A stretch of DNA of 64,000 nt, from contig JAUFSD010000003.1 in assembly GCA_033030425.1 (NCBI GenBank), positions 1,054,001 through 1,118,000 of the forward strand, read 5' to 3'. Below, one piece after another: positions 1 through 51,733 of this stretch. The notes under the pieces were generated by a model. That model was given only the letters and a program-made list of their open reading frames with translations, had not been told where the DNA came from and ran no database searches. Source of the stretch: Verpa conica (taxonomy: Eukaryota; Ascomycota; Pezizomycetes; Pezizales; Morchellaceae). Position numbers and translations under genes: made by a program. Position 1 is the first letter of the stretch; each line of letters begins with the position of its first letter.

Positions 1-2496
1 GAGAATGGCAGGGAGCTTCTTTGCTGAACGACATCTGGCTTCAGGGAGGTTGATGTGTGATCTTGCGAACGATCTTGGGAAGTCGCTCATGATAAAATGC
101 CAATCTTGGAGTCTTACAGAGATATGTGAACTTATGCTTTCAGAGAAAAGGCAAGAGTTAGATAATGAGGAGGCCTTAAAGACCTGGGCGTCGAATGGAA
201 AGGGGTTGTTGGATTATGTACTTCATTGCGAAGCGGATACATACTTCATTGCTGCAGTTGCAATCAAGATTCAGATGTTGCCACTCACGAAACAACTTAC
301 CAATCTCGCTGGTAACTCATGGGCTCGTACACTTAGCGGAACCCGCGCAGAACGAAATGAGTACATTCTCCTCCACGAATTCTACCGTAATAAATTCGTC
401 TGCCCCGACAAAATCTTTGGCAAAGGCAACAAAGTCACAAAAGCTGACGACGACGAAGAAGGGGGTGCAGATGGTGAAGAAGCTGCTTCTGGGAAAAAGA
501 AGGATAAGTACAAGGGTGGTCTTGTGTTTGAGCCTGAAAAAGGATTATATGATAAGTTTATTCTCGTCATGGACTTCAACTCGTTGTATCCCAGCATTAT
601 CCAGGAGTATAATATTTGTTTTACAACAGTCGAGAGGAATGATGATGAGGATAAGGTTCCTGAAGTTCCTGAGAAACAGGAATTGGGGATTTTGCCAAAA
701 TTGATTAGTACGTTAGTGCAGAGGCGACGACAAGTCAAGAATTTGATGAAAGATAAGGGGGCTACGGCAGTACAGAAGTCTCAGGTATATATATATATTT
801 TAGTGCTAAGCGTGAGGGATATGGCTAATGAAGGAGTAGTGGGATATTAAACAACAAGCACTAAAGCTGACGGCCAACTCTATGTACGGTTGTTTGGGGT
901 ATACACGCTCCCGTTTCTACGCACGCCCTCTTGCCATGCTCACGACCTTTAAGGGCCGTGAGATTCTGCGTGCTACGAAGGAACTAGCAGAGTCAATGTC
1001 ATTGCGGGTTATCTACGGTGATACTGATTCCGTCATGATCAACACAAATGTGGACAACTATAGTGATGCTACTAAGATTGGAAATGAGTTCAAGAAGAAG
1101 GTCAATGAGCAGTATAGGCTTCTAGAAATCGACATTGATAACGTCTTTCAAAGATTGTTACTACATGCAAAGAAGAAGTATGCGGCCATTAATTATGTAG
1201 AGATTAATGGGAAACTAGATACGAAGATGGAAGTGAAGGGGTTGGACATGAGAAGGAGAGAATACTGTCAATTGTCGAAGGAGGCATCTTCGTGAGTTTT
1301 ATCTATTTACTTGAGTTGTGCGGTTATGTTTAGTGTGCTAATTGTGAAGAATAGTCATATTTTGAATGAAATCTTCTCAGGGGATGAAACAGAAGTCGTG
1401 GTAGAGAGGGTACACGATTACCTCCGCGATCTCTCGGCCAAGATTAGAGCGGATAAGTTCCCAATCATGAAGTATATCATCTACACAAAGCTCGGAAAGA
1501 ACCCAGAAGATTACCCTGGTGGAAAGACAATGCCGCAAGTTCATGTCGCCCTACGAAAGAAGGCCCGGGGAGAGCCGGTGAAGAGTGGAGATGTTATCTC
1601 ATATATAATCACTGGAGATGGAGAAGGGACTGACAAAAACCCTGCGGAAAGAGCATATTCAGTTCAAGATGTACAAAAAGAAGATTCTGGACTGAAGCCG
1701 GATCCGGAGTGGTATTTAGTTAAGCAGATTTTCCCGCCAATTGAACGTCTGTGCGGGCCAATTGATGGAACGGATGCTATGAGGTTGGCCGAGTGTCTGG
1801 GGCTTGATACAAAAAAATACCAGATTGTCAATGCAGCTGGGCAGGAGAGCCGTGAGATTCATCCTCTAGAGTCTACGATCCCGGATGAGGAAAGGTTCAA
1901 GGATACAGCGAAGCTGAGTCTTCGATGTCGTGCTTGTAAAGAGGCCTTTGAATTTGCGGGACTCCTTTCCTCGGAGGAACTAGTTTCGCCGAAGGGGATT
2001 ATCTGTGCAAATACGTCGTGTCAGAGGATTGTTCCAGTTTCGAGTGTGATTGCGCAGCTGGAATATCAGATTCGATCATTGACGTCAAAGTACTACGATG
2101 CATGGCTGGTGTGCGATGATACGTCATGTGGGAATAGAACGCGACAAATGAACGTGTACGGAAGGAAGTGTCTAGGACCAAAGGGACACGCAAATGGGTG
2201 TAGGGGGGTTATGAGTTATGAGTATACGGATAAGATGCTTTATAACCAATTGTTATATTTTGCGAGCGTGTTTGATGTGAATAAGGCGAAGGAAAAGGTT
2301 GGGGTTGAGAGGAGACGTTTGTGCCCCTGTATATCCTCTCTATTTGAACAAAGGCTAATATGTAATAGTGACTATTCATGCATTGGCGGAGGAGAATAGA
2401 GTAAGGTTTGATTTTGTTTCAGAGACTGTGCAGAGATATTTAGAGAAGTGTGGGAGACAGTGGGTTTCCATGGAGAGCATATTCAGTTTTGTGTAG
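1..2496 (+). CDS. POL1: DNA polymerase alpha catalytic subunit, 3' part (5' end outside window)
   Basis: Family B replicative polymerase that extends primase RNA primers at origins and lagging strands. Exons read 1(partial)-784, 840-1291, 1355-2317 and 2369-2496; introns are 55, 63 and 52 bases with GT..AG ends. Visible motifs: motif [11 protein letters not shown] at about 570-600, KLTANSMYG motif B at about 865-890, and motif C YGDTDS at about 1015-1032. The C-terminal zinc-binding segments follow: a CRAC..CANTSC pair, then [16 protein letters not shown] at about 1925-2200. The conserved basic and aromatic tail ends at TAG 2494. The ATG at position 5 lies inside the gene: family members have a long N-terminal and exonuclease-like region before this point. 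Identity is very secure; exon 3/4 joining rests on phase and on similarity of the tail to the family. Confidence 0.95.
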
Positions 2497-3242
2497 ATGG
2501 GATTGGGTTCTTAGTTTCGAGTTGTATAATTATTTGTTTGTGGGGTATGAGGGGTGAAGTTGTTAGATACCCTAGTATGAGGTGTCTATCACGGTAATAG
2601 AGTACATAAGTGCAGGTGCAGGCGAGTGCCAGACTATGAATAAGAGCTGTTGTCAGACAGGCCCTAAACCCTGTGGAAGAGAACAGAAAAGCCGCCAAGC
2701 CCACGCTCCCCCATAGGGACTAGGGCGGGGGCTCCCGAGAGCCGTGCCAGAGGGAAAAAAAAAATTAGATGGGGCTTTGGGTAAAACACCACGATAAACG
2801 CAGAGGATAGCCACAGGCCAACCATTCAACTCTTACTTCTTTATTGCCGTGTTGATACGGTTATCCGGTTTATAGAACTACCGATTGCTTTTGTGCATTG
2901 TAAAACCCTGTTCTTAAAGAAGGCGGCCCAAGTGGGATCTTATTCTATCACGACATGAGGCGTCTGTCGGTAGGTCACTGCCCCCTTTGCCCCGGATTTC
3001 CTATTCCTAGAATCCCTTCCACGTACACTTCAACCACTTCTCCTTTCTTCTCACCTTCTGTACTACAACCTCGCCCACCCCCCCGTATACCTCATTCGTC
3101 ATCTTCAGCTTTTTAGAAATCCATACAACATTTAATATACTTTTATATACCCTTTTGCCTGCTACTTGTATAAGTGGCGTTTGGTATCTGACATTCTATT
3201 TTTCGACGCAACGTATTACAGAACTTTAATTTGCGGTACATC
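2497..3242. other. Spacer between POL1 and the DExH helicase gene
   Basis: About 750 bases holding the POL1 3' flank and the helicase promoter and leader. A short A-run lies at about 2755-2765 and a pyrimidine-rich stretch at about 2980-3090, typical of fungal promoters. No coding signal or repeat was recognised. Confidence 0.5.
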
Positions 3243-6200
3243 ATGCAAAACCAGCAAAATACTTCGAGGTTCGCCACCCAGACTCCCGCTAGTTCCTGGC
3301 GCGCAAGCTCAAGGCCTGGTGTTGTTCCTGCTCCAGTCCGGCCCGCAAGCAACTTTTACGCTCCGCCGGGTGAGGAAGCATGGACACAGTACGATGGGCT
3401 TGGCCCTGTGGGAAACGGTAGAGATCTTAATAGAAGCTGGAGGGGTCCCGGCCCAGCGGTAGGAAACGGTAACAACAACAGAGACAGATCCACACAGAAT
3501 ACACTATTCCAGCCGCACGGGCAAAAGGCGGGTGGCCAGTACCCTAGAGGACCGGCTCAACGAAATAATAGGGGAAGCTTTAAAGCCCAGGGAAGAGAGC
3601 GATCACCACCAAGAGGAGGGGGAGGGAGGGGAGGCGATAGACAAGCTGATCGGCCACAGGCGAAATCTAGTCTTTTAAAGTCTGGTCCGTCAAAGTCGAG
3701 GGGACAACATGGGGAGCTCATCGATGAGGCTTACTTGCAGAAGCATTTTGAAGCTCCGAAAGAGGAAGATTATAAGAAGGCACCAAAGTCGCTATTCGCA
3801 AACCCAAAGGCGTTCCTGTGGGATTTCAAGACACTTTCGGCAAAATCCGCATTTCTGTCACAAAAGGGTGGAGTTTACAGATGTACGGTTATTGTTACAC
3901 TTCCGAACCACCAGAAAATTGAGGCTGTTGGAGATTCTTCTAATAAGGTTCGTTTTCGTTTATCGTTTCTCTATACAGTTGTTGAATGCTGATGGTTTTT
4001 TCCCCTCCTAGAAAACTTCGGAAAAGCTTGCATGCCAACATTGTGTCCTCAAGCTTCATTCTACCGGACTGCTTAAAGATATCATCTACCAGGGAGCTCA
4101 CGAAGCTGCATTTGATCAGGAGCTGCTAAACGACGAATCGGACGCTAAAATGGATATCTACGATTACTGTGCACGTTTCGACACCGTTCCCATGTTTATT
4201 TTTCGGGAAACCCAACGGCCAGGAAACCGGAAAGCACTAGTTGAATGTACAGTAGAGATGCCGGAACAGAGTATTCAAGCTTCAGCCCGCGCTACTGATA
4301 AGAGGACATCGGAAATTTTGGCATGTGTCGAGTTCAAGAGGCAGGCAGAAGAATACCACGCTAAGCACGGTGAGGCGACAATCGTTGTCAAAGATTTGCT
4401 GGCACTTAGCACTCGAAACGCGAAGAAATTCTTTGAGTTCTACAAAATGCAGAACCGGAATGCGTCATACGACTTGACCTCGAAACAGGTTCAAGGAGGA
4501 AACAAAAGGCTGAAGGCCGGCTATTTCATAGGGCAAATGAACCTCGATGGTAATCCAATTGGAGAGCCGGTGGAGATGCACAGTAAGAAAGCAGCGGAGG
4601 CTGCAGCTTACCTAACGGGTGCTGTTGGATTGAAGAAAAGGGAACCGGGCTTGTTTCCGAGATTCTTGGAGGCCCTCAGACTTGGGAATGGAGAACTTTT
4701 GAAGCCAGTCACTCCTGGATGGGTACAAACAGAGAATGATTCTGTGATGGCTATGACGGATACTTTGGTGAACGTTAGGCGGGTTGGGCTTCCTCCAAGT
4801 GAGGAGGAAGAGGACATGATTGAAGCTCAGCAAGAGAGGAATAGGAGGATGCATCCATGGAGGCGTTTGGATAAGGCGTTCGTAGCTGTTAAGAATATCA
4901 AGTTGCAAGAGGCCCACCAGGAGTACTTGTCTGATCCTAAACTGGCTACACTGAGAAAGAAGCGTGAGGAGTTGCCAATGAATCAGTATCAAGCAAAGGT
5001 TTTGGATATTGTAGAAAAACATCCTGTTAGCATTATTGTTGGTGCTACTGGTTCTGGAAAGACTAGTAAGTCCTAAATACTCTTTATATTAGAGGTTTCG
5101 TTATTAACTCAGTACAGCTCAGGTACCTCAGATTCTACTAGAGAAAGCAATTAAGGGGGGAAAGGGTGCCGAGTGCAATATCATTTGTACTCAGCCTAGA
5201 CGTATTGCCGCTACCTCCGTGGCGCAGCGTGTCGCTGTGGAAAGAAATGAATCCCTTCAGAAATCTGTTGGTTATCACGTTCGGTTCGATTCTAAGTTGC
5301 CATCTGCTGGTGGAAGTATTACCTACTGTACGACCGGTATCCTACTTCAACAACTTAGAAACTCTGCCGATGAAGCGCTAGAGGGTGTTACCCATCTTGT
5401 TATTGACGAAGTTCACGAACGCGATATTCTTATTGACTTCTTGTTGATTATCTTGAAGCGGGTGTTGAAGGATAGGAAGATCCTCGGAAAACCGGATGTT
5501 AAAGTTGTGCTTATGAGTGCAACCATGGATACAGATCTTTTCTCGAACTATTTCCAGCAAAAGAATGAGCATGGCCAACTTGTACGGTGCCCTGACCTTA
5601 GTGTTCCTGGGCGTACTTTCCCAGTTAAGGAATTATACCTTGAGGACATTAAGGAAATTCTTCAGCAGTCTCACTCGCCCCAAGAATTGGCTATGCTCAA
5701 TGAGCCTGATTCAAGGGAGTTCCTTGGAGTTGAGACCAGCCTATCAGCCTCAAATCCAGCCTCAAGGCTTGCATCGAGAGCTCCTTCAAGAGTACCTTCA
5801 AGGGTCCCCTCCAGAGCTGCCTCTACACGGGAAGAGGCTCTTGAGGAAGATGATGGTGTGGACAACTCTACTACTATCAATTGGAAGCAGGAGATTAAGC
5901 TTGGTGTTAATGGTCAGGCAGTTGTTTCAAACGAGAAGCAGGACGCCATCGTTCCTATAGGCCTTATTGCTACCACTGTAGCCCACATCGCAAAAACTAC
6001 AGATGAAGGTGCTATGTTGGTATTCTTGCCTGGTCTTGAGGAAATCACTAGTCTGGACGAGGCTCTCCGGGTCCGGAGACTGTTAGGTGTTGACTTTAGT
6101 GACGAAAAGAAGTTTAAACTCTGCTTGCTCCATTCTTCCATTCCTAACCAGAACGAAGTCTTTGACGATGTTCCGGAGGGCTGCCGTAAGGTTATTCTTT

Positions 6201-28652: not shown

Positions 28653-31600
28653 TTACTCCGAATCACTATCTGCAACCACTCTCCGGGCCCTACCAGGTCT
28701 GCGCGTAACATCCTCATCCTCATCTTCTGTAGCATTATTCATGTCAATATCATCGCCTTTTGATGGTGTTGTCCTCGCTATCCCAGCTAGGTCATCACTA
28801 TCATCCTCCGACGATAAGTTGGCCAAAACTGGTACAACAGGTGTAACCTCTCTTGAGATTACACCTTCATCATCTTCAATTACCACCTCTTCATCATTCT
28901 CCTCCATCATCCGCTTCTTTTTCTTTCTTTCTTTCTCTACACTTTTCAAACTGTCTCTTTTATCTGACTTCTTCCTCTTCTTCGTTGCTGAGGGTTCTGG
29001 ACGTTTAGTACCAACAACTAATAATGGTGCAACACTACGTTCCACCTCCAACATCTTCGGCCCCGCTTCCCTCTGCGCCTTTTCCTTTAAAAGGAATTCC
29101 ATTTCCTTCTCTGGATCCATTTCTTCATCCGAATCGTGAATATAAATATCACTCTTAATTGCTGCCCTCTTTTCTTTCTCCCTTTGTAGTCTCTTCTTCC
29201 GTTTCTCCCTTGCTAACTCATCAAGGACGTCTTCATCAAGGTCCTGATCATCGATAGGAGTGCGTCTTTTCCTACCTAGGGTCTTCTTTTTCGGTTCCAG
29301 CGGTTTCATTTGCGTGGGACCCCCAGGTACGAAGAGAAATTCCTGATTATCGTCAGAATCATCGTCGGAATCAAATATTTTCCGTGCTTTTGCTTTTCGT
29401 TTGATAAGGTCCTCAGGAACCTTGCCATCTTCGAAGGTGATAGGATCATTGGTATATTTTTTAAGGAGATCGAGAGATTCTTGGAGCTGATCGGAGGTGA
29501 GGGACGAGGGAATAATCCAGGGAGTGTCCGGACTTTCGTCTACCTCGAGCTTTTCAAGACCGAGGGTGGTCATAAGGAGACGGAGTTTAGCGTCTTTAAA
29601 CATTGCGTTCTTCCGCTCTTCAGAATCAGGTTTTATTACTGCAAAAAAAATTAGCTTCTGATCCCAGAAGAATTGAAGGAAGTGGCTTACTGATATATGG
29701 GGGCTTGTTTGATTCATTCGGGATCACCTCTGCGCCTGCATCCGCTGCAGCTTCTTCTTCAAGAATTCTTCGGGCTGTATCCTCTGCTTCCCAGGATTTT
29801 CGCTCGCTGATGGCCTTGTTGAGTTGGTCTTTGAGCCAGTCTACTCCATCACCCTTATTATCGTCTAGCAGTGCGCCAACAGCAATGCCAACCTGTTCAT
29901 TTCGTGATACCCCAGGGATATGCAGCTCTGCAGCTGGTCTACTAAGGATTAGAAAAAAAATCATATATAAGAATCCTAGGAGATACAAACCTTGCCTGCC
30001 GGATCTTGATTTCTTTATCATACCCGTGTGTAAGATAATGCATAGTGTTATTCATTTTCGTGAACAAAAGCTCCACAAACATCTCAGGTCTACTTTCGAG
30101 TTTCTTAATCAACTTCCTCAAATAGTATTTGACAAACTGGTCCATCTCCTTCCTCGCCGGGTGGCTCTGCGGCATACCGTCAGGGTCTTGCATAATCCGG
30201 TAAAACTGTTCCACAATATCCAACCTGAACAGTAACACCTCTTCCTGCCGCTTCACAAAGATCCGGTGGAAAAATGTAATCGCTCGTTTAACCTGGCTAT
30301 ATGAGAGCTCTTTGTAGTTGTCTAGAAATGCTAGGAAAGTATTGATACAGTTTTGTTGAAGGAGCTTAGTTTCGAATCGCCCAAAATCGAAGGCACGCTC
30401 TTTCATGGTATTGCGAGATACCATAGCCATATCCTCCTCGTCTTCTTCTTCTTCGGGCATGTCGGTTCTTTCTTGCTTCTTCTTAGTCTTTTGCCGGCGC
30501 TTGGACCGGACAAAGAGTACTTCATGTTGCTTCGAGTATCTTTCGAGCATTTTGAGATGAACATGGACCATCTCTGTACAGTCATCTAACCAACTAAATG
30601 GCTGCTTCGTATAGGAGCGTAGTATACCAACTACGAGGTCTAATGTAGTCTCCTCATAAAATAACCTATTCTGAATATTCTCAGCGATGTCTTGGTCGTC
30701 TTCTAGTGGCGATATTGCCATGTCCTGTACTGTTAATAAGATCTGAGTAAAGCACCGCATTCCGGCTTGGAGCTCTATCCAGTACTTGAGATCGAACCAA
30801 CCTGTCATCAGACGGTTCAGCGTGATTAGCATTTCCTGATTTAATACCGATGCAACGAGAGAGAAAGAATCATCCCCTGAATCGGTAGGCTGCTTCTCAG
30901 CCGACTTTCTGCGCACCCGCTCGGCTTTGAGGAACCAGGCGATCAGGTAAAAGAATTGACGTTGATTCGTATTTAGGAGCCGCTCGGCATCACGGTCAAT
31001 GGCACGGCGTATATGGCCAAACAACGGGTTGAAACCCGCATCTAGGAATTCTTCAACAAAGGCCCGCATCTTTGGTTTCGTGGGGCCTTCGAGAGTCACC
31101 ACCATATCGAACTCCGTCTTCCGCCCAACACCCTTGGCGTCACTTCCCTTTGGCTTCTTCCATTTCTTACTCGCATCCATTTTCTGCTGTGCTGTGCTCT
31201 TACCTAGGAGCGCACCTTGGCCAGAGACGAATGCACGGCGTCCGTCATCTTTCTCTACCCATACTGTTGTTCCGAAGCGGTTGTGCCTTGTGCTCGCACT
31301 ACGCACAGATGCCCGCTTCATCTCGTCTTCTGCTTTGAGTAAATCGGTGAGACTCTGTGCTTTTCTCTTATTTTCTTCGGCGCCGGAGAGGAAGAGTTGT
31401 TCAATGTCTACGCTCTTCAGCAGGTGGTAGATAACCTCCATGACCACCACATCCTGCGTTATAAAATTATTCCCCATCTCGCTGCTTATGGCCAACAGTA
31501 AGTATAGGATGTTTTGCGCATCGTATGCCTCGATTGTTGCAGATCTATTGATGTCTTCACCGGTATCGGTCTCGTTGGGGTTAGGGTGTTCAATAATTGC

Positions 31601-32426
31601 AAGGTTGCGGAAGAGGTAAAGAACGAGCTTTATGATTCCTTCATCACGTTCGGTACGTTCAGAGCCCGGGATGTCAATGGATGGGAGAGCCACGCGGACG
31701 ATAGAGGATAGAATGTTTTTTGAGGGGTGGCGCAGAATAGCAGCTTTGTATCCAGCTTGGGCATGGGTGAGGGCGGGGAGGTGGCGATGGTGGTTTTGTG
31801 TCATTTCAGAGAGGGTTTTGTCCAATGGCCAAGTGAGAGGAACGAGTAGTTCGACTACGGGAAGTTTTAGTATTAAGTAGTTATATCTTATTTATTAAAC
31901 AGAGGTGAGGCATACCACATGCGAGTGCTAACCGATGCTTGCTCCTATCTTCGGTATCTTCATCCTTCCAGCTAGCAAGAATCTCTAGTAGGTCCCCCTT
32001 GACCAGGTTCGCCTCCGCCATACATCTCGCAACCTATGCCAGATAGCCCCATCAGTACTTGCTCTTCCATTCCGTAGTTCTATCGGGAGTCTCACATCGT
32101 ATCTGTTCAGTTTCTCGTCATAGAGTCGTAGCCATTTCCGCAAGTCTTTTAAACAGGCCAATGCATCATCTCCCAGCTCATAGCCCGTGGGTGTAGATCC
32201 TCCGAGCTGTTACTTCCGGTTAGGTTTTTATGTTCTCTTTTTTTTTTTGTAAAGCCGGGAGAGGGGTAGTTACCGCCGAGACTAGGGAGAGGATGTGTGC
32301 CCTCTAGAAGGAATATTAGCTAGTACTCTTGGGTATAGGTTTGAATTAGGGACATACAATCATAGGGTCTACTGTCTCTGGAGCTCCACCAAAACCAGGA
32401 GCATCACTTTCGCTGTCGGTATCCAT
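28653..32426 (-). CDS. TOF1: Tof1/Swi1 (Timeless) replication fork protection protein
   Basis: Seven exons on the minus strand: 32426-32358, 32303-32274, 32206-32096, 32033-31916, 31854-29991, 29941-29691 and 29638-28653, giving about 1,142 residues. The conserved Timeless N-terminus reads [51 protein letters not shown] and [11 protein letters not shown] across the small exons. [14 protein letters not shown] and [15 protein letters not shown] follow further in. The C-terminal 300 residues are highly charged, with acidic and Lys/Arg clusters, as is usual. Tof1 acts with Csm3 and Mrc1 at replication forks in checkpoint signalling and pausing. Exon 2 is only 30 bases. Every splice phase agrees. 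Confidence 0.95.
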
Positions 32427-42412: not shown

Positions 42413-43765
42413 TTACAAATTCCACTTTTTGGGGGGATTAGGGAGGCCTTTGAGAAGTTCGGAGTGTGAATAGCTCCGTTCGGATGAGATGGTTGGAAAC
42501 GAGGAGTGAAACCGGGCCGTGACTGGGTTGTTAAAGGAGTGGGCCGTCGCAACCCTGATGGCGTGTTTAATCTTAAGGTACTGAAGATAAAGTATTAATG
42601 GGGGGGCGGAGGCCTCCGCCCATAGAGCGTGTAGATTGGTTGCTCTAAAGCAGCCTAGGGCCCACCTGAGAACGGAGTTCCAAAAGACCTCCATTTCTTT
42701 TAGGGCTGAGGTGGGGGTGAAAAGGGTGGCACCATAGGTAAGCATGGGGCGAATGGCAAGGGTGGCTAACTTCCTGCAATTACTTGAGGAGAGACCTTTC
42801 CCGGAAGAGGAAAATCTTTGAAGAATGCCAAAAGAAGCCTGGGCTGAAGCCAGTCTTCTTGTAAAATGGTCGTTTGGGTTAAATGAGGGTGAGAACCAGT
42901 AGCCGACCCACCGTACTATTGGTTTTGGATGAAAGGTGTGTCCATCAATGCACACGGAGAGGTGTGAAACTGGTGACTTGTCTCTGGAGGTGCGCCAGTG
43001 CATCAGCTAAGTTTTAGCGACTGAGAAGGACATGTTGCGGGGAGCTGCATTGTTTTTAAGGTGATAGTAATTTTCTTGAAGTAAAAGAATGTTTTCCTCC
43101 ACTGTGGGGGAGGCGACCATGATGGCAAAATCATCAACGTATGATAGGGTAATGCCTGGTGAGGGTTCCAGGTGATGTAAAACGCTAACGTAGATAACAA
43201 ACAATAGAGGAGAAATAGGGGATCCTTGGGGGACCCCGACTTGAACTGGAACGGCTAGCTTGGGGGAGCTTTTGTAAAGCAAGGTAACCCAGCGGTCGGA
43301 CAAAAAGAAGAGAATCCAATTGACCATATAGGGAGGAACGCTTTGAGAAGTAAGAATGGAGGCTAGAGTGTGTTTTACCACATTATCAAAGCCGCCTTTA
43401 ATGTCTAAGAAAAGAGTGGAAACTTTCAGTTTAGCTAGCTGCATGGCTCTAATTTCGTTATAAAAGACTGTGGTGGCGTCTGAAGTGGAGAGGCCTGCGA
43501 CTGAGCCGCATTGGTGTGGATGAACTAGGCCAGTGGCCTTTGCTATCTTTGCCAATCTAAGTGTAACAATTTTCTCCAAAACTTTTGAGAAGGTTTGGAG
43601 AAGAACAATTATTTGGTAGGAGGAAGTGGCTGAGTAGTCATCTTTGCCTGGCTTGGCTAGGACTACACCATTTGCCTTTTTTAGGGAGAGTGGGTGATAA
43701 CCGCTTTTCAAAAGAGGGGTAAGAATTCTGGGAATGACTGTGGGATTAATCCTGTGGACATCTTT
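42413..43765 (-). pseudogene. LINE ORF2 reverse transcriptase region, in-frame stop
   Basis: Same frame as the endonuclease region. Core motifs: NGVVLAKPGKDD, LFLDIKGGFDNV (motif A), GVPQGSPISPLLF and the catalytic YVDD at about 43143-43132, then the thumb-like segment. A TAG stop at 43009-43007 interrupts it shortly after the palm, and a TAA at 42415-42413 ends the frame. Both are single-codon or frame defects in otherwise well-kept sequence. Confidence 0.85.
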
Positions 43766-45250
43766 CTATACTGAGTAAGGAATGGAGTCGGGTCCTGGTG
43801 CCGAAAGATTGGATGTTTTAAAAAGAACAAGCTGAATTTCTTCAGGAGTAATAACGGGAACATTATGATGCCGTAGGGGAAGGGGGGAGCCAGTATCTGG
43901 TCTTGGGGGAAAGAATGCATTCACTAAATTCTCATTTAGGATTTGAGGTGTAGAGGAATTGGGGATGGAAGGGATCCGGTCCTCGGATCTGGTGGCCATT
44001 TTCTTAAGCCGCCACACATCGGAAGGGGAGGCGTTGGACACAAACGTGTTCCAATGATCACGTTTGGCCTTTTTAATAGCGTTAAAGTAGGCGTTTTTGG
44101 CCGCTTTAAGCTCGAATGGAGGGGAAAGTCCTTTGCGGTAGGACTTGTGGACGCTGTGGTATATAGACCTTAACTGGGATAGATTAGGGTTCCACCAGGG
44201 TTTTGACCATGATGAAACTTTCTTTGTGGGGGTATGTAAAAGGAGTGTGTTATGAAGTTGATTAAAGGACTCGTCAAACCATTTGTCTAAGTCGGAGGAG
44301 TCGGGGGGGAGCTGAAACTCGCTTAACAGGGGAGTAATGAGGTCCCAGTTAATGAGGGACCAGTTGGGGGTGTTATAGGGAGTGAAGTCAGTGTCCGGGG
44401 GGACCAGCTGACAGAGTATGACTCTGTGGTCTGAGCCTGAGGAGACTGGTGGGATAAGCCACTTTGAGACTAATTGAATTGCGGATTGATTTGCCCAGGT
44501 AAAGTCGATGACGCTATGTCGCTTTCTCGGGTCAGGGGAGATTCTGGTGTACTTCCCAGGAGTGTTAACAAGTGAAAAGCCAAGTTGGTTGGCCAGCCTA
44601 AAATAGGGAGTGGAAAGATTTAGTTCCATTGTAGAGAACTTTCGCAGGGGATCCGCAGCAGGGGAGTGAACATTAAAGTCACCAACGACAACGGTAGGGA
44701 CAGATGAGGTCGGAAAGGCCATGTAAGGAGGGACAGATCTAACGGAATCGGACACCTGTCTATTGTAGACATTAACAAGTGCTAAGGATGAAAATGAGTG
44801 ATTTGAGGTTGCAAAATGTAATGTAATAAAAATAATGTCTCCTCGGTGCAAGGGGGACTGGGTAACAGAGTTCTTATCCAAAAAGGAAAAGTTAATATAA
44901 AAGCACACCGACACCTTGTCTGTCTGGAGTGTGGGTGTGGGTTTAAAAAGAGCGAAGTTGGGTGCAATTAAAGGAGAGCGATTAAATAACGGGGGTTCTT
45001 GCACAGCTATGACCTGTGACAAGTGAACTACTGGATTTGAGAATAGAGAAAGAAACACATTTGTCGCGGGCAGCTCCAAGGATACCCACGCCACCGTCAC
45101 ACGAAACAAGGCCAAAACCGGATCACACCTCCGCAAGAGGGTCACCTTCGACCTCGCCCCCACTAGACGATCGAGTCGATTAAGTGCGCGCGGAGGGGAC
45201 GTTTCTACAAACAGGCAATAATAGGCGCGGGAAGGCTTGTGTTCGCGCAC
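43766..45250 (-). pseudogene. LINE ORF2 apurinic-type endonuclease region
   Basis: The open frame ends at a TAG at 43768-43766, after which the same frame continues into the reverse transcriptase. Endonuclease motifs: IAVQEPP with the metal-binding Glu, VVVGDFNVHSP (GDFN-H), VIDFTWAN and SGSDHRVI (the SDH motif). The frame starts at a GTG at 45250; no convincing ATG was seen, so the true start is uncertain. This enzyme nicks the target DNA at integration. Confidence 0.88.
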
Positions 45251-45778
45251 CCGAGGTTGATAACGATAAACGTATTTGTCAATAAGGTTTTTCGGGCCGA
45301 CGGCCCATTTTGTTAGTTTCGGATTTTACGTAACGTTGTCGGATGCCCCCAAAGTCCCCTTGTACACTTTGTATGTGGTTTGTATGGGAAAGATACCTTT
45401 CTGTTGGATATGACATATCCAACAGAAACAGTGGGGGGGATTTTGGAATTGGAGTGAAAAGTTTTCTTCGGTGTAAAAGTTATTTTGTAGGCAGGAAAAG
45501 AGGGGAAACATATAAGGAGGGACCTCGCCCCGAGAGTTTTCTTAGGCACGCAACGTCTTGTTTATATTGTTTAGTAAAGAAATATTACAGAGTTTTTCAC
45601 TTGTAATATCTTTTGTCGTAACACCGTTTATTGTCGCCGTCTTAGTCGCCGTCACCGTTTCGTTGCCTAGGCTTCACTGTACCATCCCAACCGCCCCGCC
45701 ACAACATTGTTGCTCCCGGCGCAGTTGTGTTGAATGATGTTAAGTGGAGAATTGTGTTTAGTGGTTGTACTAAACATT

Positions 45779-46400
45779 TTAATTGGTGTCGTTCATTGCC
45801 ACTTCCTCGGTGGCTTCTGAAGAGGGTTGAGCCTCCTGGGTAGGTCCGTCTCTGAGCTTGTTGATGATGGAAATGCGGTGAGGGCATTTCGAGAAATTTG
45901 CCGTGTGATTACCTCCACAGTTGACACACTTGGAGGGGGTGGCGACACAGCAGTTGGGTTTTGGGCGGACGTGGCCAGGGCACGTAGTAACGGCACACTG
46001 GTGTTTGTCTCTAGGGTGGCCTAGGGAACAGATGGGACAGGTAGGTTCTTTTTGTTTGCACCCTTTAGTTGGGTGGCCGAATTTGTAACAGTTGCGGCAG
46101 AGGGTGGCTTTGGAGGCTGACCACATGACGGAGCAGTGGCGGGGGCGCGAATAGAGTCTGATGGTGGTGCCAATGATGGCTGCTTCCTCAGCAGTGACAG
46201 TGATGACAACTGTTGAGAACTTCTGGGCGTTTCGGGCGGTGTCGTCGGCGGTGAGAAAGCGGGTGTCGAGGGGAGTGATCCCTGTTGCGAGTTTCACCGC
46301 TTCAGGGAAGGCTTTTTTGAGATGGGCGAGGTCGGGGAACTCGCTTAGTGGGATGCCTCTGACAGCAACGTCGCAGGTGGTAGGGGCTTGCTTGAACAGC
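45779..46400 (-). pseudogene. LINE ORF1, 3' half with CCHC zinc knuckles
   Basis: Gag-like nucleic-acid-binding protein. A canonical knuckle CRNCYKFGHPTKGC is followed by two variant ones (CPICSLGHPRDKHQC and CVNCGGNHTANFSKC), then a Glu/Asp-rich tail and a stop at 45779. It is separated from its 5' half (50647-51507) by the foldback element. The join QLFKQAP here follows ..SNPF there if the element and one TG are removed. Confidence 0.88.
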
Positions 46401-46402
46401 TG
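46401..46402. repeat. TG target duplication, left copy, of the foldback element
   Basis: TG here and at 50645-50646. One copy is needed to rebuild the LINE ORF1 frame. Confidence 0.6.
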
Positions 46403-46463
46403 CATCAGCAAACCTGCAAGATTGCGTCAGGAGCAACTGTTGCACGGGACGCTGGAGATGCCA

Positions 46464-47713
46464 CATCAGCAAAAACAAAGATTCCGCCCCGCTCTCCTGA
46501 AGAGCGGGGCGAGCGGGGCGACGATTTCGCAAACCTACCCTCCCACAGGTGCTTTATGCTGCACGTCATCTCCGGGAAATCTCAGGGCGGACGCTAGCAG
46601 TCCGGGAGATGCCGGGAGAGCCTCAATAAGAGTAGAACAAAAAGTTGCGTCTAGAAGAGTCTCAATTCTCTATTCTCTATTCTCTATGTTCTATCTAATC
46701 TATATACAAGAATATACCTGCTTTGCTGCCTCCCCGCTGCCCCCCCCCCCGCTTGCCCCGCTGCCTGCCTGCCTGCCTGCCGCTGCTGCGCTGGGAGGCA
46801 GCTCGACGTCCAGTCGACGCGTCGGACCAAGGGTGTTCGTACCTGAACGGATAGGTTGTTCGCTTGGTGGCTCGGGGGCTGCTGAAGGCTGCTGGGGGTC
46901 CTGCTGGGGGTCCTGCTGCAGCTGTCGCGCTAGGGGTTCTCTGGGGTCACGTTGACGCGTCGGACACGGGAGGTTCGTCTCGCCCCGGGTTCATTGTTTG
47001 CTCTATAGGAGAGAGCCTGCAGCTGTTGCTGGAGGGGGTCTGCTCTGTCTGCTGGGTCTGCTCGAGGGTCTGCTCGAGGTCCATAGACGCGTAGGACATG
47101 GAGGGTTTGTACCGTGACGGGTAGGTTGTTCGCTTTATAGGAGAGAACCTGCCTATCCCCCACCCCCCCGCCTGCCTGCTTGCCTGCTTGCCTGCTTGCC
47201 TGCCTGCTTGCTGCCTGCTGCCGCTGTCGCGCTGAGAGGCAGCTCGACGTCCAGTCGACGCGTCGGACCAAGAGTGTTCGTACCTGAACGGGTAGGTTGT
47301 TCGCTTGGTGGCCCGGGGGCTGCTGAAGGCTGCTGGAGGCTTGCTGGGGGTCCTGCTGCAGCTGTCGCGGCTGGTCTGCAGGGAGTCGCGTTGGCGCGTC
47401 GACGTAGGGTGTTCGTACCGGTACGGCCGCTGGGGGGGGGGGCTACTGCTGGCGGTGCTATAAGGCGCTGTTCTCAATAGTTAGCATAGGTTCATAGAGT
47501 GGTAGTGAGTGGGTGGGGGGTGCTGGGGGAGAGGGGTTGCAGGCGCGTTAATGTGGTACGGCCGGGTAACACCAGCACCTCTCCAGGAGACTGGGGGCGA
47601 CGGTCCCTCGCCCGGGTGCTGAGGGGTCGGCAGCGCTCTCCAGGAGAGCGGGGCGAACTTTCTCCGCCTGGGCGACAAAAATCTCCCGGAGAGTTTTTTT
47701 TTTTTTGCTGATG
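46464..47713 (+). repeat. Left arm of the foldback
   Basis: Begins CATCAGCAAAAACAAAGATTCCGCC and ends in a run of T followed by GCTGATG. It holds about five related modules (near 46815, 46953, 47087, 47255, 47395) built on GACGCGTCGGA..GTACC..GGTAGGTTGTTCGCTT. Flanking blocks of GGAGAGCGGGGCG occur at both ends. GCAACTGTTGCA words sit just outside on both sides (46432-46443 and 47718-47728). Confidence 0.85.
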
Positions 47714-48265
47714 TAGCAACTGTTGCATCACAGGAAATCACTTGCGTCACAAGCATCCCCAGCATCCCCAGCACCCCAAGCGTCACCATACCACTGCCAG
47801 TACCAGGAGCGCCTCACAAGAGGCTCTGGGAACCGTACTACTTAAAATTATGTTTCTTGTGAGAGAACTATTGTTCCCTCCTACCCGCAGATTACTAGCC
47901 TTTATTAACTACCGTTCTTTTCAGAAAAACAAGCGAGGTTTTGGAGGTGCGTTCCGCCAACCCTAACCCTACTGGGGATACACCTAACCCTGCTTGGATA
48001 CCCCTAACCCCTATCCCTATTCCTCCAGGGACTTCGCCAAAATCTCTAAGTCCCTGAACAGACCACACCACACCCACCTCATCGCACCACACCACATCTA
48101 CCCCCACCCCCTACCCCCTCTCCCCTACCCCTCTCCCCTACCCTTCTCCCCTACCCCTCTCCTCTATTTCTCTATTGCTATTTGAACAGTAAAAGCTAAC
48201 TTATATGCAGGCTGTCTTGTTTCCTTTCACCCGTGTCATAACGCGTTCTACCGACGCATCATGCC

Positions 48266-49045
48266 AGTAGCAGGACCCTTGAGACCCTCCAGGCGACAGC
48301 AGCAAGACCTCCTAAGCAGCAGCAGCAGGACCCCCTAAGCAGCAGCAGGACCCCCTAAGCAGCAGCAGCAAGACCCTCGAGACCCCCCTCCAGGCGACAG
48401 CAGCAAGACCCCCTAAGCAGCTGCAGCAGGACTCCTAAGCGACAGCAGCAAGACCCCCTAAGCGACAGCAGCAGGACCCCCTAAGCGACAGCAGCAGGAC
48501 TCTCGAGACCCCCTCCAGGCGACAGCAGCAAGACCTCCTAAGCAGCAGCAGCAGGACCCCCTAAGCAGCAGCAGCAAGACCCTCCAGGCGACAGCAGCAG
48601 GACTTCCTAAGCAGCAGCAGCAAGACCCTCGAGACCCCCCTCAGGCGACAGCAGCAGGACCTCCTAAGCAGCAGCAGGAGGACCCCCTAAGCGACAGCAG
48701 CAAGACCCCCTAAGCGACAGCAGCAAGACCTCCTAAGCGACAGTAGCAGGACCCTTGAGACCCTCCAGGCGACAGCAGCAAGACCTCCTAAGCAGCAGCA
48801 GCAGGACCCTCCAGGCGACAGCAGCAGGACCCCCTAGGCGACAGCAGTAAGACCCCCTAAGCAACAGTAGCAGGACTCTCGAGACCCCCCCCAAGCGACA
48901 GCAGCAAGACCTCCTAAGCGACAGCAGCAAGACCCTCCAGGCGACAGCAGCAGGACTCTCAAGACTCCCCCCAGGCGGCAGCAGCAGGACCTCCTAAGCA
49001 GCAGCAGCAGGGTCCTCGAGACCCCCCCCCCCAGGCGACTGCTGT
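48266..49045. repeat. CAG-rich minisatellite in the foldback centre
   Basis: About 780 bases of irregular units of roughly 20-40 bases: GACAGCAGCAAGACC(C/T)CCTAAGC, AGCAGCAGCAGGACCCCCTAAGC and CTCGAGACCCCCTCCAGGC alternate. Units differ in number of CAG triplets. The plus strand is closed by frequent TAA; the minus strand gives only Leu/Arg/Ser repeats. Confidence 0.85.
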
Positions 49046-49204
49046 AGGTCTCCAGGACTATGGGAACCTCTCGGGTGACAAGCAGGTGCTGAGGACAAGC
49101 GAATTAGAGATATTTTGTACATATTAGATAGCATATAATAAAATAATTGAGAACCATACTAGTACTTCTGTGATGTGACCGTGACAAGAGCGTGACAGCA
49201 CCAG

Positions 49205-49355
49205 AGGACGTCAGGAAGCCTACCAGAGAGCATCAGAACGTCTACCAGAGAGCGTCAGAGGCATCAGGAGCCTCTGACGCTCCCATAGCAGCGTCAGGAG
49301 CCTCTGACGCCTTCAGCAGAGCGTCAGGAGCCCCTGACGCCTCACAATAGCGTCA
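49205..49355. repeat. Cluster of GCGTCAGGAGC inverted words
   Basis: GCGTCAGGAGCCTCTGACGC-type near-palindromes occur about three times in succession, with shorter GCGTCA words around. The same word is found near both outer ends of the element (46425 and 50614), suggesting a binding site for the mobilising protein. Inference. Confidence 0.55.
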
Positions 49356-49378
49356 TATTCGGCCAATTGCCGAATGTG

Positions 49379-50603
49379 CATCAGCAAAAAAAAAAAAACT
49401 CTCCGGGAGATTTTCGTCGCCCAGGCGGAGAAAGTTCGCCCCGCTCTCCTGGAGAGCGCTGTTGACCCCTCAGCACCCGGGCGAGGGACCGTCGCCCCCA
49501 GTCTCCTGGAGAGGTGCTGGTGTTACCCGGCCGTACCACATTAACGCGCCTGCAACCCCTCTCCCCCAGCACCCCCCACCCACTCACTACCACTCTATGA
49601 ACCTATGCTAACTATTGAGAACAGCGCCTTATAGCACTGCCAGCAGTAGCCCCCCCAGCGGCTGTACCGGTACGAACACCTCATGTCTGACGCGTCGAAC
49701 GCGGCCCAGAGGGACCCCAGCGACAGCTGCAGCAGACCAGCAAGCCTCCAGCAGCCTTCAGCAGCCCCCGGGCCACCAAGCGAACAACCTACCCGTTCAG
49801 GTACGAACACTCTTGGTCCGACGCGTCGACTGGACGTCGAGCTGCCTCTCAGCGCGACAGCGGCAGCAGGCAGCGGCAGCGAGCGAGCAAGCAGCGAGCA
49901 AGCAGGCAAGCAGGCAGGCGGGGGTGGGGGATAGGCAGGTTCTCTCCTATAAAGCGAACAACCTACCCGTCACGGTACAAACCCTCCATGTCCTGCGCGT
50001 CTATGGGCCTCGAGCAGACCTCGAGCAGACCAGCGAGCAGCAGAGCAGGCCTCCAGGCAACAGCTGCAGGCTCTCTCCTATAGAGCAAACAATGAACCCG
50101 GGCGAGACGAACCTCCCGTGTCCGACGCGTCAACGTGGCCAGAGAACCCCCAGCGCGACAGCTGCAGCCACAGAGGAGCACAGCCTTCAGCAGCCTCCGC
50201 CACGGCGAACAACCTACCCGTTCAGGTACGAACACCCTTGGTCCGACGCGTCGACTGGACGTCGAGCTGCCTTCCAGCGCAGCAGCGGCAGGCAGGCAGG
50301 CAGGCGGCGGGGCAAGCGGGGGGGGGGCAGCGGGGAGGCAGCAAAGCAGGTATATTCTTGTATATAGATTAGATAGAACATAGAGAATAGAGAATAGAGA
50401 ATTGAGACTCTTCTAGACGCAACTTTTTGTTCTACTCTTATTGAGGCTCTCCCGGCATCTCCCGGACTGCTAGCGTCCGCCCTGAGATTTCCCGGAGATG
50501 ACGTGCAGCATAAAGCACCTGTGGGAGGGTAGGTTTGCGAAATCGTCGCCCCGCTCGCCCCGCTCTCCAGGAGAGCGGGGCGGAATCTTTGTTTTTGCTG
50601 ATG
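49379..50603 (-). repeat. Right arm of the foldback
   Basis: Inverted copy of 46464-47713. From CATCAGCAAAAAAA at 49379 it mirrors the left arm's inner end, and it finishes ..GGCGGAATCTTTGTTTTTGCTGATG at 50603. It differs by small indels in the GGCAG/CTGCC tracts and lacks about 25 bases. Confidence 0.85.
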
Positions 50604-50644
50604 TACACCAATTGCGTCAGGACACGATTGCAGGTTTGCTGATG

Positions 50645-50646
50645 TG
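50645..50646. repeat. TG target duplication, right copy, of the foldback element
   Basis: Matches 46401-46402. Confidence 0.6.
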
Positions 50647-51507
50647 GAATGGGTTCGAGAGGTCGTTAACCGTTTGGTTGAGAATCGCAGTGAGCCCTTC
50701 AAAGAAGGGGGCGTATGTAGAGGCTGGGACCGTTGGGGGAGCGGTGACTGAGACAGCTCCTTGCTGGTTAATGGAGACTGTGAGAGAGGTGACGGGGGTG
50801 ACTTGTCCCCCTTTAGCGAGGAACTGGCCTAGGAGAGTTGGGAGACGTTGGACAAGGGAATCGGAGTCTTTGAGGGGAGAGGGGGTCTGTCTAGACGAAA
50901 AGAACCTTCGCTGAGCAGTGGGTAAGGTCTTGGGCTTATCCTCCGTGACTTTTTGCTGCTTGGGGCGAGGATTGGTGGCCTTTTTCGGGGTGGTGTTGGC
51001 GGCCGACTTGGCAGCATCAACATAGGACATCTTTTCGGTGGTCGTGACCGACTTGGGGGGGGATTTGGCGGGTAGACTCTGATAGGAGGGACCAGCAGGG
51101 GAGATTGGTTGGGTTCTTTGATGGGGGAAGGTTGCAGGAGGGGAAGAGGTTGAATTTTTAATGTTTTTAACGATGGCTTCGAGCCTCTCGAAGCGGTCGT
51201 AAACGCTGGTGGGGGGATGGTTGGAGGCGTACCGAGTCTTTGTCTGAATGTCATCGACTACGGCCGTGATAGAATCGAGCTGATGGGAGAGTTCGAGGGC
51301 GGCATGTTTGGCCTGAGCCGCGACCTTGAAGGTGGAACAAAGAAGGGTGAGGAGCAGCTTCTCCATGGGAGAGGTGTTGTCGTCATTCATAGCGCTGGCA
51401 ACGGTAGAGGAGATGAGGGAGGAGTTTGGCATGCCTATTTCATGGTCTATAAGACCAGTTTGTAGGTTGTCATAGATTTCGGAGAGAGAGGGGTCAGGGC
51501 TTGGCAT
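50647..51507 (-). pseudogene. LINE ORF1, 5' half
   Basis: Starts at ATG 51507-51505 (MPSPDPSLSEIYDNL). A coiled-coil-like stretch rich in Leu, Ala and His (about 51380-51200) is followed by a Pro/Ser/Lys-rich linker. The frame is open until the foldback border after ..NDLSNPF. It would continue into the zinc-knuckle half at 46400. Confidence 0.85.
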
Positions 51508-51629
51508 TTTGAGGCCTGGAATTTTTGTGAGTTTGGTGGGGAAAAGTGGTTGCCACGCAAAATTTTGGTGTTGAGTTTCAAAAACTGAGAAAATAGAAGG
51601 GATGGAGGATGATAGAAGGGATGGAGGAT

Positions 51630-51646
51630 GAACTACTTCATGAAAT
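51630..51646. repeat. Target-site duplication, right copy, of the LINE
   Basis: Same 17 bases as 39859-39875. It lies 88 bases past the stop of the hydrolase gene, so the LINE landed in that gene's 3' flank. Confidence 0.9.
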
Positions 51647-51733
51647 ACCTACCCATCTATTATATTCTAAACTCAAAAACAAAATAAAAAAATAATATTA
51701 ATACTAATCTGACACTATACACCCCTCTTTCAA

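Follow-up and report, generated by a model that had tools for sequence, protein, structure and literature searches.

Results

Structure of the locus

The window, which is the whole 64,000-nucleotide stretch of the Verpa conica genome analysed here (G000:C3:1054001-1118000), contains a LINE on the minus strand, whose ORF1 is split by a 4,242-bp unit at positions 46403-50644. The features of the LINE and the unit are as follows.

43010-43765, minus strand: LINE reverse transcriptase frame (PF00078)
43769-45325, minus strand: LINE endonuclease frame (PF14529, PF03372)
45782-46402, minus strand: 3' part of LINE ORF1, with CCHC-type cysteine clusters (by eye in the translation) and no Pfam match
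46401-46402, no strand: left copy of the outer target site duplication (TSD), TG, from comparison of the flanks with empty LINE sites
46403-46463, plus strand: terminal piece of the outer element, 61 bp, consisting of the 17-bp terminal inverted repeat (TIR) followed by GCGTCA; its closing bases, CA at 46462-46463, are also one copy of an arm TSD
46464-47713, plus strand: left arm, 1,250 bp, a complete copy of a 1.25-kb non-autonomous family with ends CATCAGCAAAAAC..TTTTTGCTGATG
47714-49378, minus strand: middle of the outer element, 1,665 bases, lying the other way round from the 20 fetched relatives; TA at its start and TG at its end each match, crosswise, the flank of the arm on the far side
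48269-49036, no strand: minisatellite with a 23-bp step, within the outer element
49379-50603, minus strand: right arm, 1,225 bp, also complete and of the 1.25-kb family, in the opposite orientation
50604-50644, minus strand: terminal piece of the outer element, 41 bp, with TA first and the second 17-bp TIR last
50645-50646, no strand: right copy of the outer TSD, TG
50647-51648, minus strand: 5' part of LINE ORF1, no Pfam match

The outer inverted repeat, CATCAGCAAACCTGCAA, is 17 bp long and perfect (46403-46419 and 50628-50644), with TG on either side. Each arm is bounded by CATCAGCAAAAA ends of its own. Allowing up to one mismatch, the window contains 12 occurrences of CATCAGCAAA, where 5.0 would be expected; six are exact, and these are the six borders. 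An earlier note on this DNA had described the outer repeat, the two inverted arms of about 1.25 kb with their own ends, and a repeat-filled centre, and all three were found, the last as the 23-bp-step minisatellite. Its statement that the unit carries no credible protein also agrees with our result, as none of the overlapping non-LINE frames with a length of 200 aa or more has a Pfam match; there are three of these, at 46155-46952 and 49612-50364 on the plus strand and at 50217-50828 on the minus strand.

Elsewhere in the window, a gene for the replication-fork protein Tof1/Swi1 (Timeless) lies at 29945-31891 on the minus strand, matching other database proteins at 77-82% and, as the nearest named species, Tuber melanosporum at 70%.

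Insertion into the LINE

In the genome (45.8 Mb, 25 contigs), 33 rows match the right flank of the unit, and four of these places were taken to examine the insertion point. It is empty in all four LINE copies, with which the joined flanks plus a single TG align straight through. Arithmetic on the ORF coordinates shows that removal of 4,244 bases (the unit and one TG) shifts codon position 46426 to 50670, a multiple of three from 51648, while deletion of 4,242 bases instead breaks the ORF1 frame. Since the four LINE sites are empty and the frame is kept after removal of the unit and TG, the borders that the earlier note assigned to an insertion in a LINE are right.

The outer family

The 17-bp outer end has 56 exact copies genome-wide; when up to two mismatches are allowed, there are 102 (50 + 52), against 5 (2 + 3) with a reversed-pattern control. 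Elements with paired exact outer ends include some on C17 and C18, for example, and 20 others that we fetched. The shortest of these 20 is 1,187 bp and the longest, L066, described below, 9,245 bp. Identical 2-bp flanks, varied in sequence, are present in 18 of the 20, and the exact duplication is missing in L069 (AT/TA) and L072 (CT/TT).

The outer element of the window, minus its arms, is 1,763 bp long. The middle itself is common to 19 of the 20 relatives, and L066 shares the ends alone. The closest relative is L075 (G000:C16:1392871-1396212), with an identity of 95.6% in the first 1,102 aligned columns, rising to 98.4% when the first 500 bp are taken alone, and of 99.4% in the last 693 bases. 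L075 is continuous through both arm sites and has no arm at either. Because this relative is armless at both sites, the arms are secondary to the outer element.

Some relatives carry insertions of their own. L075 has one of 1,256 bp inside its minisatellite, which starts with TGTAACGGGGGC and has AGCAGG on both sides. L076 (G000:C20:683325-690679, noted at 1383-5990) is an outer-family copy broken by an insertion with an open 1,535-aa frame that resembles a copia polyprotein by eye. The fetched outer-family copies shorter than 2 kb span 1,187-1,926 bp, and this difference in length suggests that the minisatellite array (48269-49036 in the window) varies in length among copies.

The arm family

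A query made of the unit's initial 1,198 bases gave at least 72 matching rows in the genome, a lower bound from the 40 of 156 candidates that were scored. The outer 53 bases are matched by the window's own row only; the other rows all begin at base 54 or later, at or close to the arm border, base 62 of the unit. Five other arm copies have both ends in view (L007, with its second end out of view, is outside this set). Identical 2-bp flanks are found in four of them (TA, TA, CC, and AT), and the exact duplication is missing in the fifth, L006 (CA/AA). The 2-base duplications that the earlier note proposed to look for in all copies are present in the copies examined of both families, except for L069, L072, and L006. 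In G000:C1:1019208-1020844, two arm-family copies in opposite orientations are apparently nested one in the other, judging from end and match positions alone.

The two arms of the window share complementary blocks of 287 nt at 100% (rounded; one substitution is present at 46500), 278 nt at 99%, and 138 nt at 100%, a complementarity far beyond chance. In an alignment of seven copies, their full-length identity at aligned bases is 95.1%, and 49 columns contain gaps. The differences are mostly found around gaps in the repeat-rich part; away from gaps, the identity is 97.8-99.6%. Between the arms there are 16 gap runs, and the 873 columns lying over 5 columns away from a gap contain 19 substitutions. 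When all columns are taken, the left arm is closer to a copy on C11 (97.5%) than to the right arm. If only columns at a distance above 10 from every gap are counted, the arm-arm identity is 99.0% versus 98.9% for the left arm and the C11 copy, and at a distance above 20, the values are 99.6% and 98.9%. The closeness to the C11 copy therefore fails, away from gaps, as proof of a separate insertion. From these identities, it is possible that the two arms come from one recent source or have undergone conversion between them. Two separate arm insertions are supported by their two different target duplications, on which this view rests.

Inversion of the middle

The orientation of the middle should be noted. 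In the relatives, the stretch starting at 47714 adjoins the 41-bp terminal piece, found at the far right of the unit in the window. The ends of all 20 relatives (L066 entered this comparison by its ends) are joined to the middle the opposite way round from the window. With the middle reversed, the scores of the 20 relatives are 68-92 for the first 100 bp and 80-98 for the last 100 bp; against the present arrangement, they are 21.5-27.5 and 33.5-42.

As arranged in the window, neither arm is flanked by a matching 2-bp pair. Turning 47714-49378 back gives a TA/TA pair at one arm and a CA/CA pair (TG on the plus strand) at the other. Since both arm duplications are restored in this way, recombination between the arms has probably flipped 47714-49378; a single crossover between inverted arms yields exactly the pairing seen.

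Transposases are also able to join the ends of neighbouring elements, as in reversed-ends transposition of Ac/Ds, so a flip through aberrant transposition on the arm ends rather than homologous recombination has a precedent. This route is improbable here: the two inner ends are alike in type (both poly-A/T), and no dinucleotide is lost, the four having only exchanged partners, which is what a crossover between inverted repeats should give. Assemblies are known to be prone to error at long inverted repeats, and the similarity of the arms away from gaps would suit a palindromic (snap-back or chimeric) read that joined them. Such an artefact becomes highly improbable in view of the gap runs and substitutions by which the arms differ, and of the precise, crosswise-paired duplications at both arms.

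Each outer junction of the composite, left and right, has one genomic match at up to three mismatches, and the 4.24-kb composite shows no visible spread in the genome. A search for other copies, as the earlier note had proposed, thus finds the outer and arm families each in many copies and the whole composite, with its junctions, once. A single long-arm foldback family moving as a 4.24-kb unit, the giant element first proposed, would explain the perfect outer TIR, the TG duplication, and the long inverted arms, but is hardly credible given these unique junctions, the 20 relatives that are armless at these sites, and the many arm-family copies elsewhere with duplications of their own. The arms are not the termini of one multi-copy mobile unit; they are nested elements of another family, and the unit consists of three elements with a middle inverted against that of the relatives fetched.

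Candidate transposase-bearing partners

PF18759, the Plavaka transposase domain, is found in 35 rows in the genome, several of which are neighbouring pieces. L066 (C9:862223-871467), 9,245 bp long, has 17-bp TIRs identical to those of the outer family, AA/AA flanks, and PF18759 in two frames (E = 5.9e-55 and 2.5e-15). Where species are named among the 120 matches listed for its transposase, they belong to Morchella and Kalaharituber. Just inside the terminal pieces, L066 resembles the outer element for 84 bp at one end (91.7%) and for 66 bp at the other (75.8%). Since nothing but these end stretches matches, there is no support for the outer interior as a whole having come from L066.

Among the long outer-end elements L066, L068, L069, and L076, the Plavaka transposase is found in L066 only. 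As partners of the outer family, the other three were rejected: L069 (5,640 bp) has a 631-aa frame that is LINE-ORF1-like by eye, without a Pfam match; the 1,535-aa frame of L076 (7,055 bp) is the copia-like one; and in L068 (4,196 bp) all frames are shorter than 120 aa. A TET/JBP domain was not found in the six L066 frames scanned. Further minus-strand frames occupy positions 1169-5062 of the L066 region (G000:C9:861923-871767), one with DUF6532 (PF20149, E = 4.9e-9). A 556-aa minus-strand frame of L066 is weakly related (22%, E = 4.9e-7) to a frame in an arm-family element on C1.

GCGTCA occurs nine times in L066, every one within 231 bp of an end. The 19 other relatives have 2-3 in the first 150 bases and 3-9 in the last 250 bases, against a background of 0-1.27 per kb in the interiors of the relatives and 0.28 per kb in the window outside the unit. 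As the motif was chosen by eye, this distribution is only suggestive of a transposase-binding repeat.

The arm family has two long elements on C1. One is 10,006 bp long (C1:3429545-3439550), with CA/CA flanks and a PF18759 match at C1:3436802-3437799, and the other is 9,111 bp long (C1:1001657-1010767; the sequence fetched leaves out 1008049-1010499), with TA/TA flanks and a PF18759 match at C1:1008049-1009040. Both match the arm over the first 146 bp at 79-82% and over the last 106 bp at about 92%. Because the left-end match is only about 80%, the long C1 copies may not be the direct source of the arm family. Derivation of the whole arm from C1:3429545-3439550 is likewise unsupported, as the end stretches alone match. 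L066 and the two C1 elements thus carry the transposase, between matching ends, that the earlier note had suggested looking for; its remark that no transposase is recognisable stands for the unit itself.

Discussion

Family placement

According to section 3.2.2 of Kojima 2025 (PMC12730594), PlavakaB families have termini CATCA..TGATG and 2- or 3-bp duplications, and the same source assigns PlavakaB DNA transposons to the CMCT clade. Both the outer and arm families have 5'-CATCA..TGATG-3' termini. Duplications of 2 bp are found in 18 of the 20 outer-end elements, the window copy, four of the five other arm copies, and both long C1 elements, and PF18759 is present in longer members of both families. 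The two families therefore appear to be PlavakaB-type, with the B placement resting on the ends and duplications. The earlier note knew of no fungal family with these ends, and PlavakaB is such a family. The window copy differs from PlavakaB as described there in being without a transposase and split by two other elements. EnSpm/CACTA proper, for which PMC12730594 gives CAC..GTG termini and a 3-bp duplication, is ruled out by the CATCA termini and 2-bp duplications here.

The section concerned in PMC12730594 treats Plavaka families from Agaricomycotina, whereas the host here is a Pezizomycete; a literature search on Plavaka together with Pezizomycetes gave that paper alone. Passages of the Marasmius oreades papers report Plavaka elements there too, and describe non-autonomous hAT copies that use the transposase of a partner.

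Origin of the unit

We consider, with a probability of roughly 0.94, that non-autonomous PlavakaB elements were nested in a LINE and that recombination between the arms then inverted the middle, the ends being shared with Plavaka partners. The nesting, the duplications, the inversion, and the shared ends are read from the sequence of the genome.

A non-autonomous PlavakaB-type element of about 1.76 kb would have entered LINE ORF1 with duplication of TG. One copy of the 1.25-kb family would have inserted about 40 bp inside one end of the outer element, with duplication of TA, and a second copy, in the opposite orientation, about 60 bp inside the other, with duplication of CA/TG. These arm insertions could have taken place either before or after the entry of the outer element into the LINE. 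Homologous recombination between the two inverted 1.25-kb copies, the route of the flip that we infer, would then have turned the middle over. The acting transposase was most likely supplied in trans by longer Plavaka elements of the same genome, because both families share their ends with longer Plavaka elements that carry a transposase.

Comparison with known systems

Foldback transposons such as Tetris (PMC4079207) likewise have long inverted arms round a repeat-rich centre; the arms here differ in being separate elements with TSDs of their own, not the terminal repeats of one family. In TE-mediated inversions (PMC12368964), transposon copies likewise flank a flipped segment, whereas the scale here is very small (1.66 kb) and the segment lies inside another transposon. 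Mu killer of maize (PMC3440606) likewise consists of inverted transposon sequences with a potential long hairpin RNA; by comparison, the present structure is known from DNA alone, and the long frames over its arms have no Pfam match. By analogy, a read-through hairpin RNA of about 1.2 kb might silence the PlavakaB arm family in trans, as a fungal counterpart of Mu killer arisen by chance nesting, which we regard as very improbable. The hairpin looks like a by-product.

Implications

The unit is ordinary mobile-element wreckage, comprising new families of a known superfamily and a small inversion, and is not a new class of element. An odd-looking structure is thereby resolved as nested transposons, and two non-autonomous Plavaka families with candidate partners are recognised in a Pezizomycete. 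The locus further indicates that crosswise-paired 2-bp duplications can expose a small inversion.
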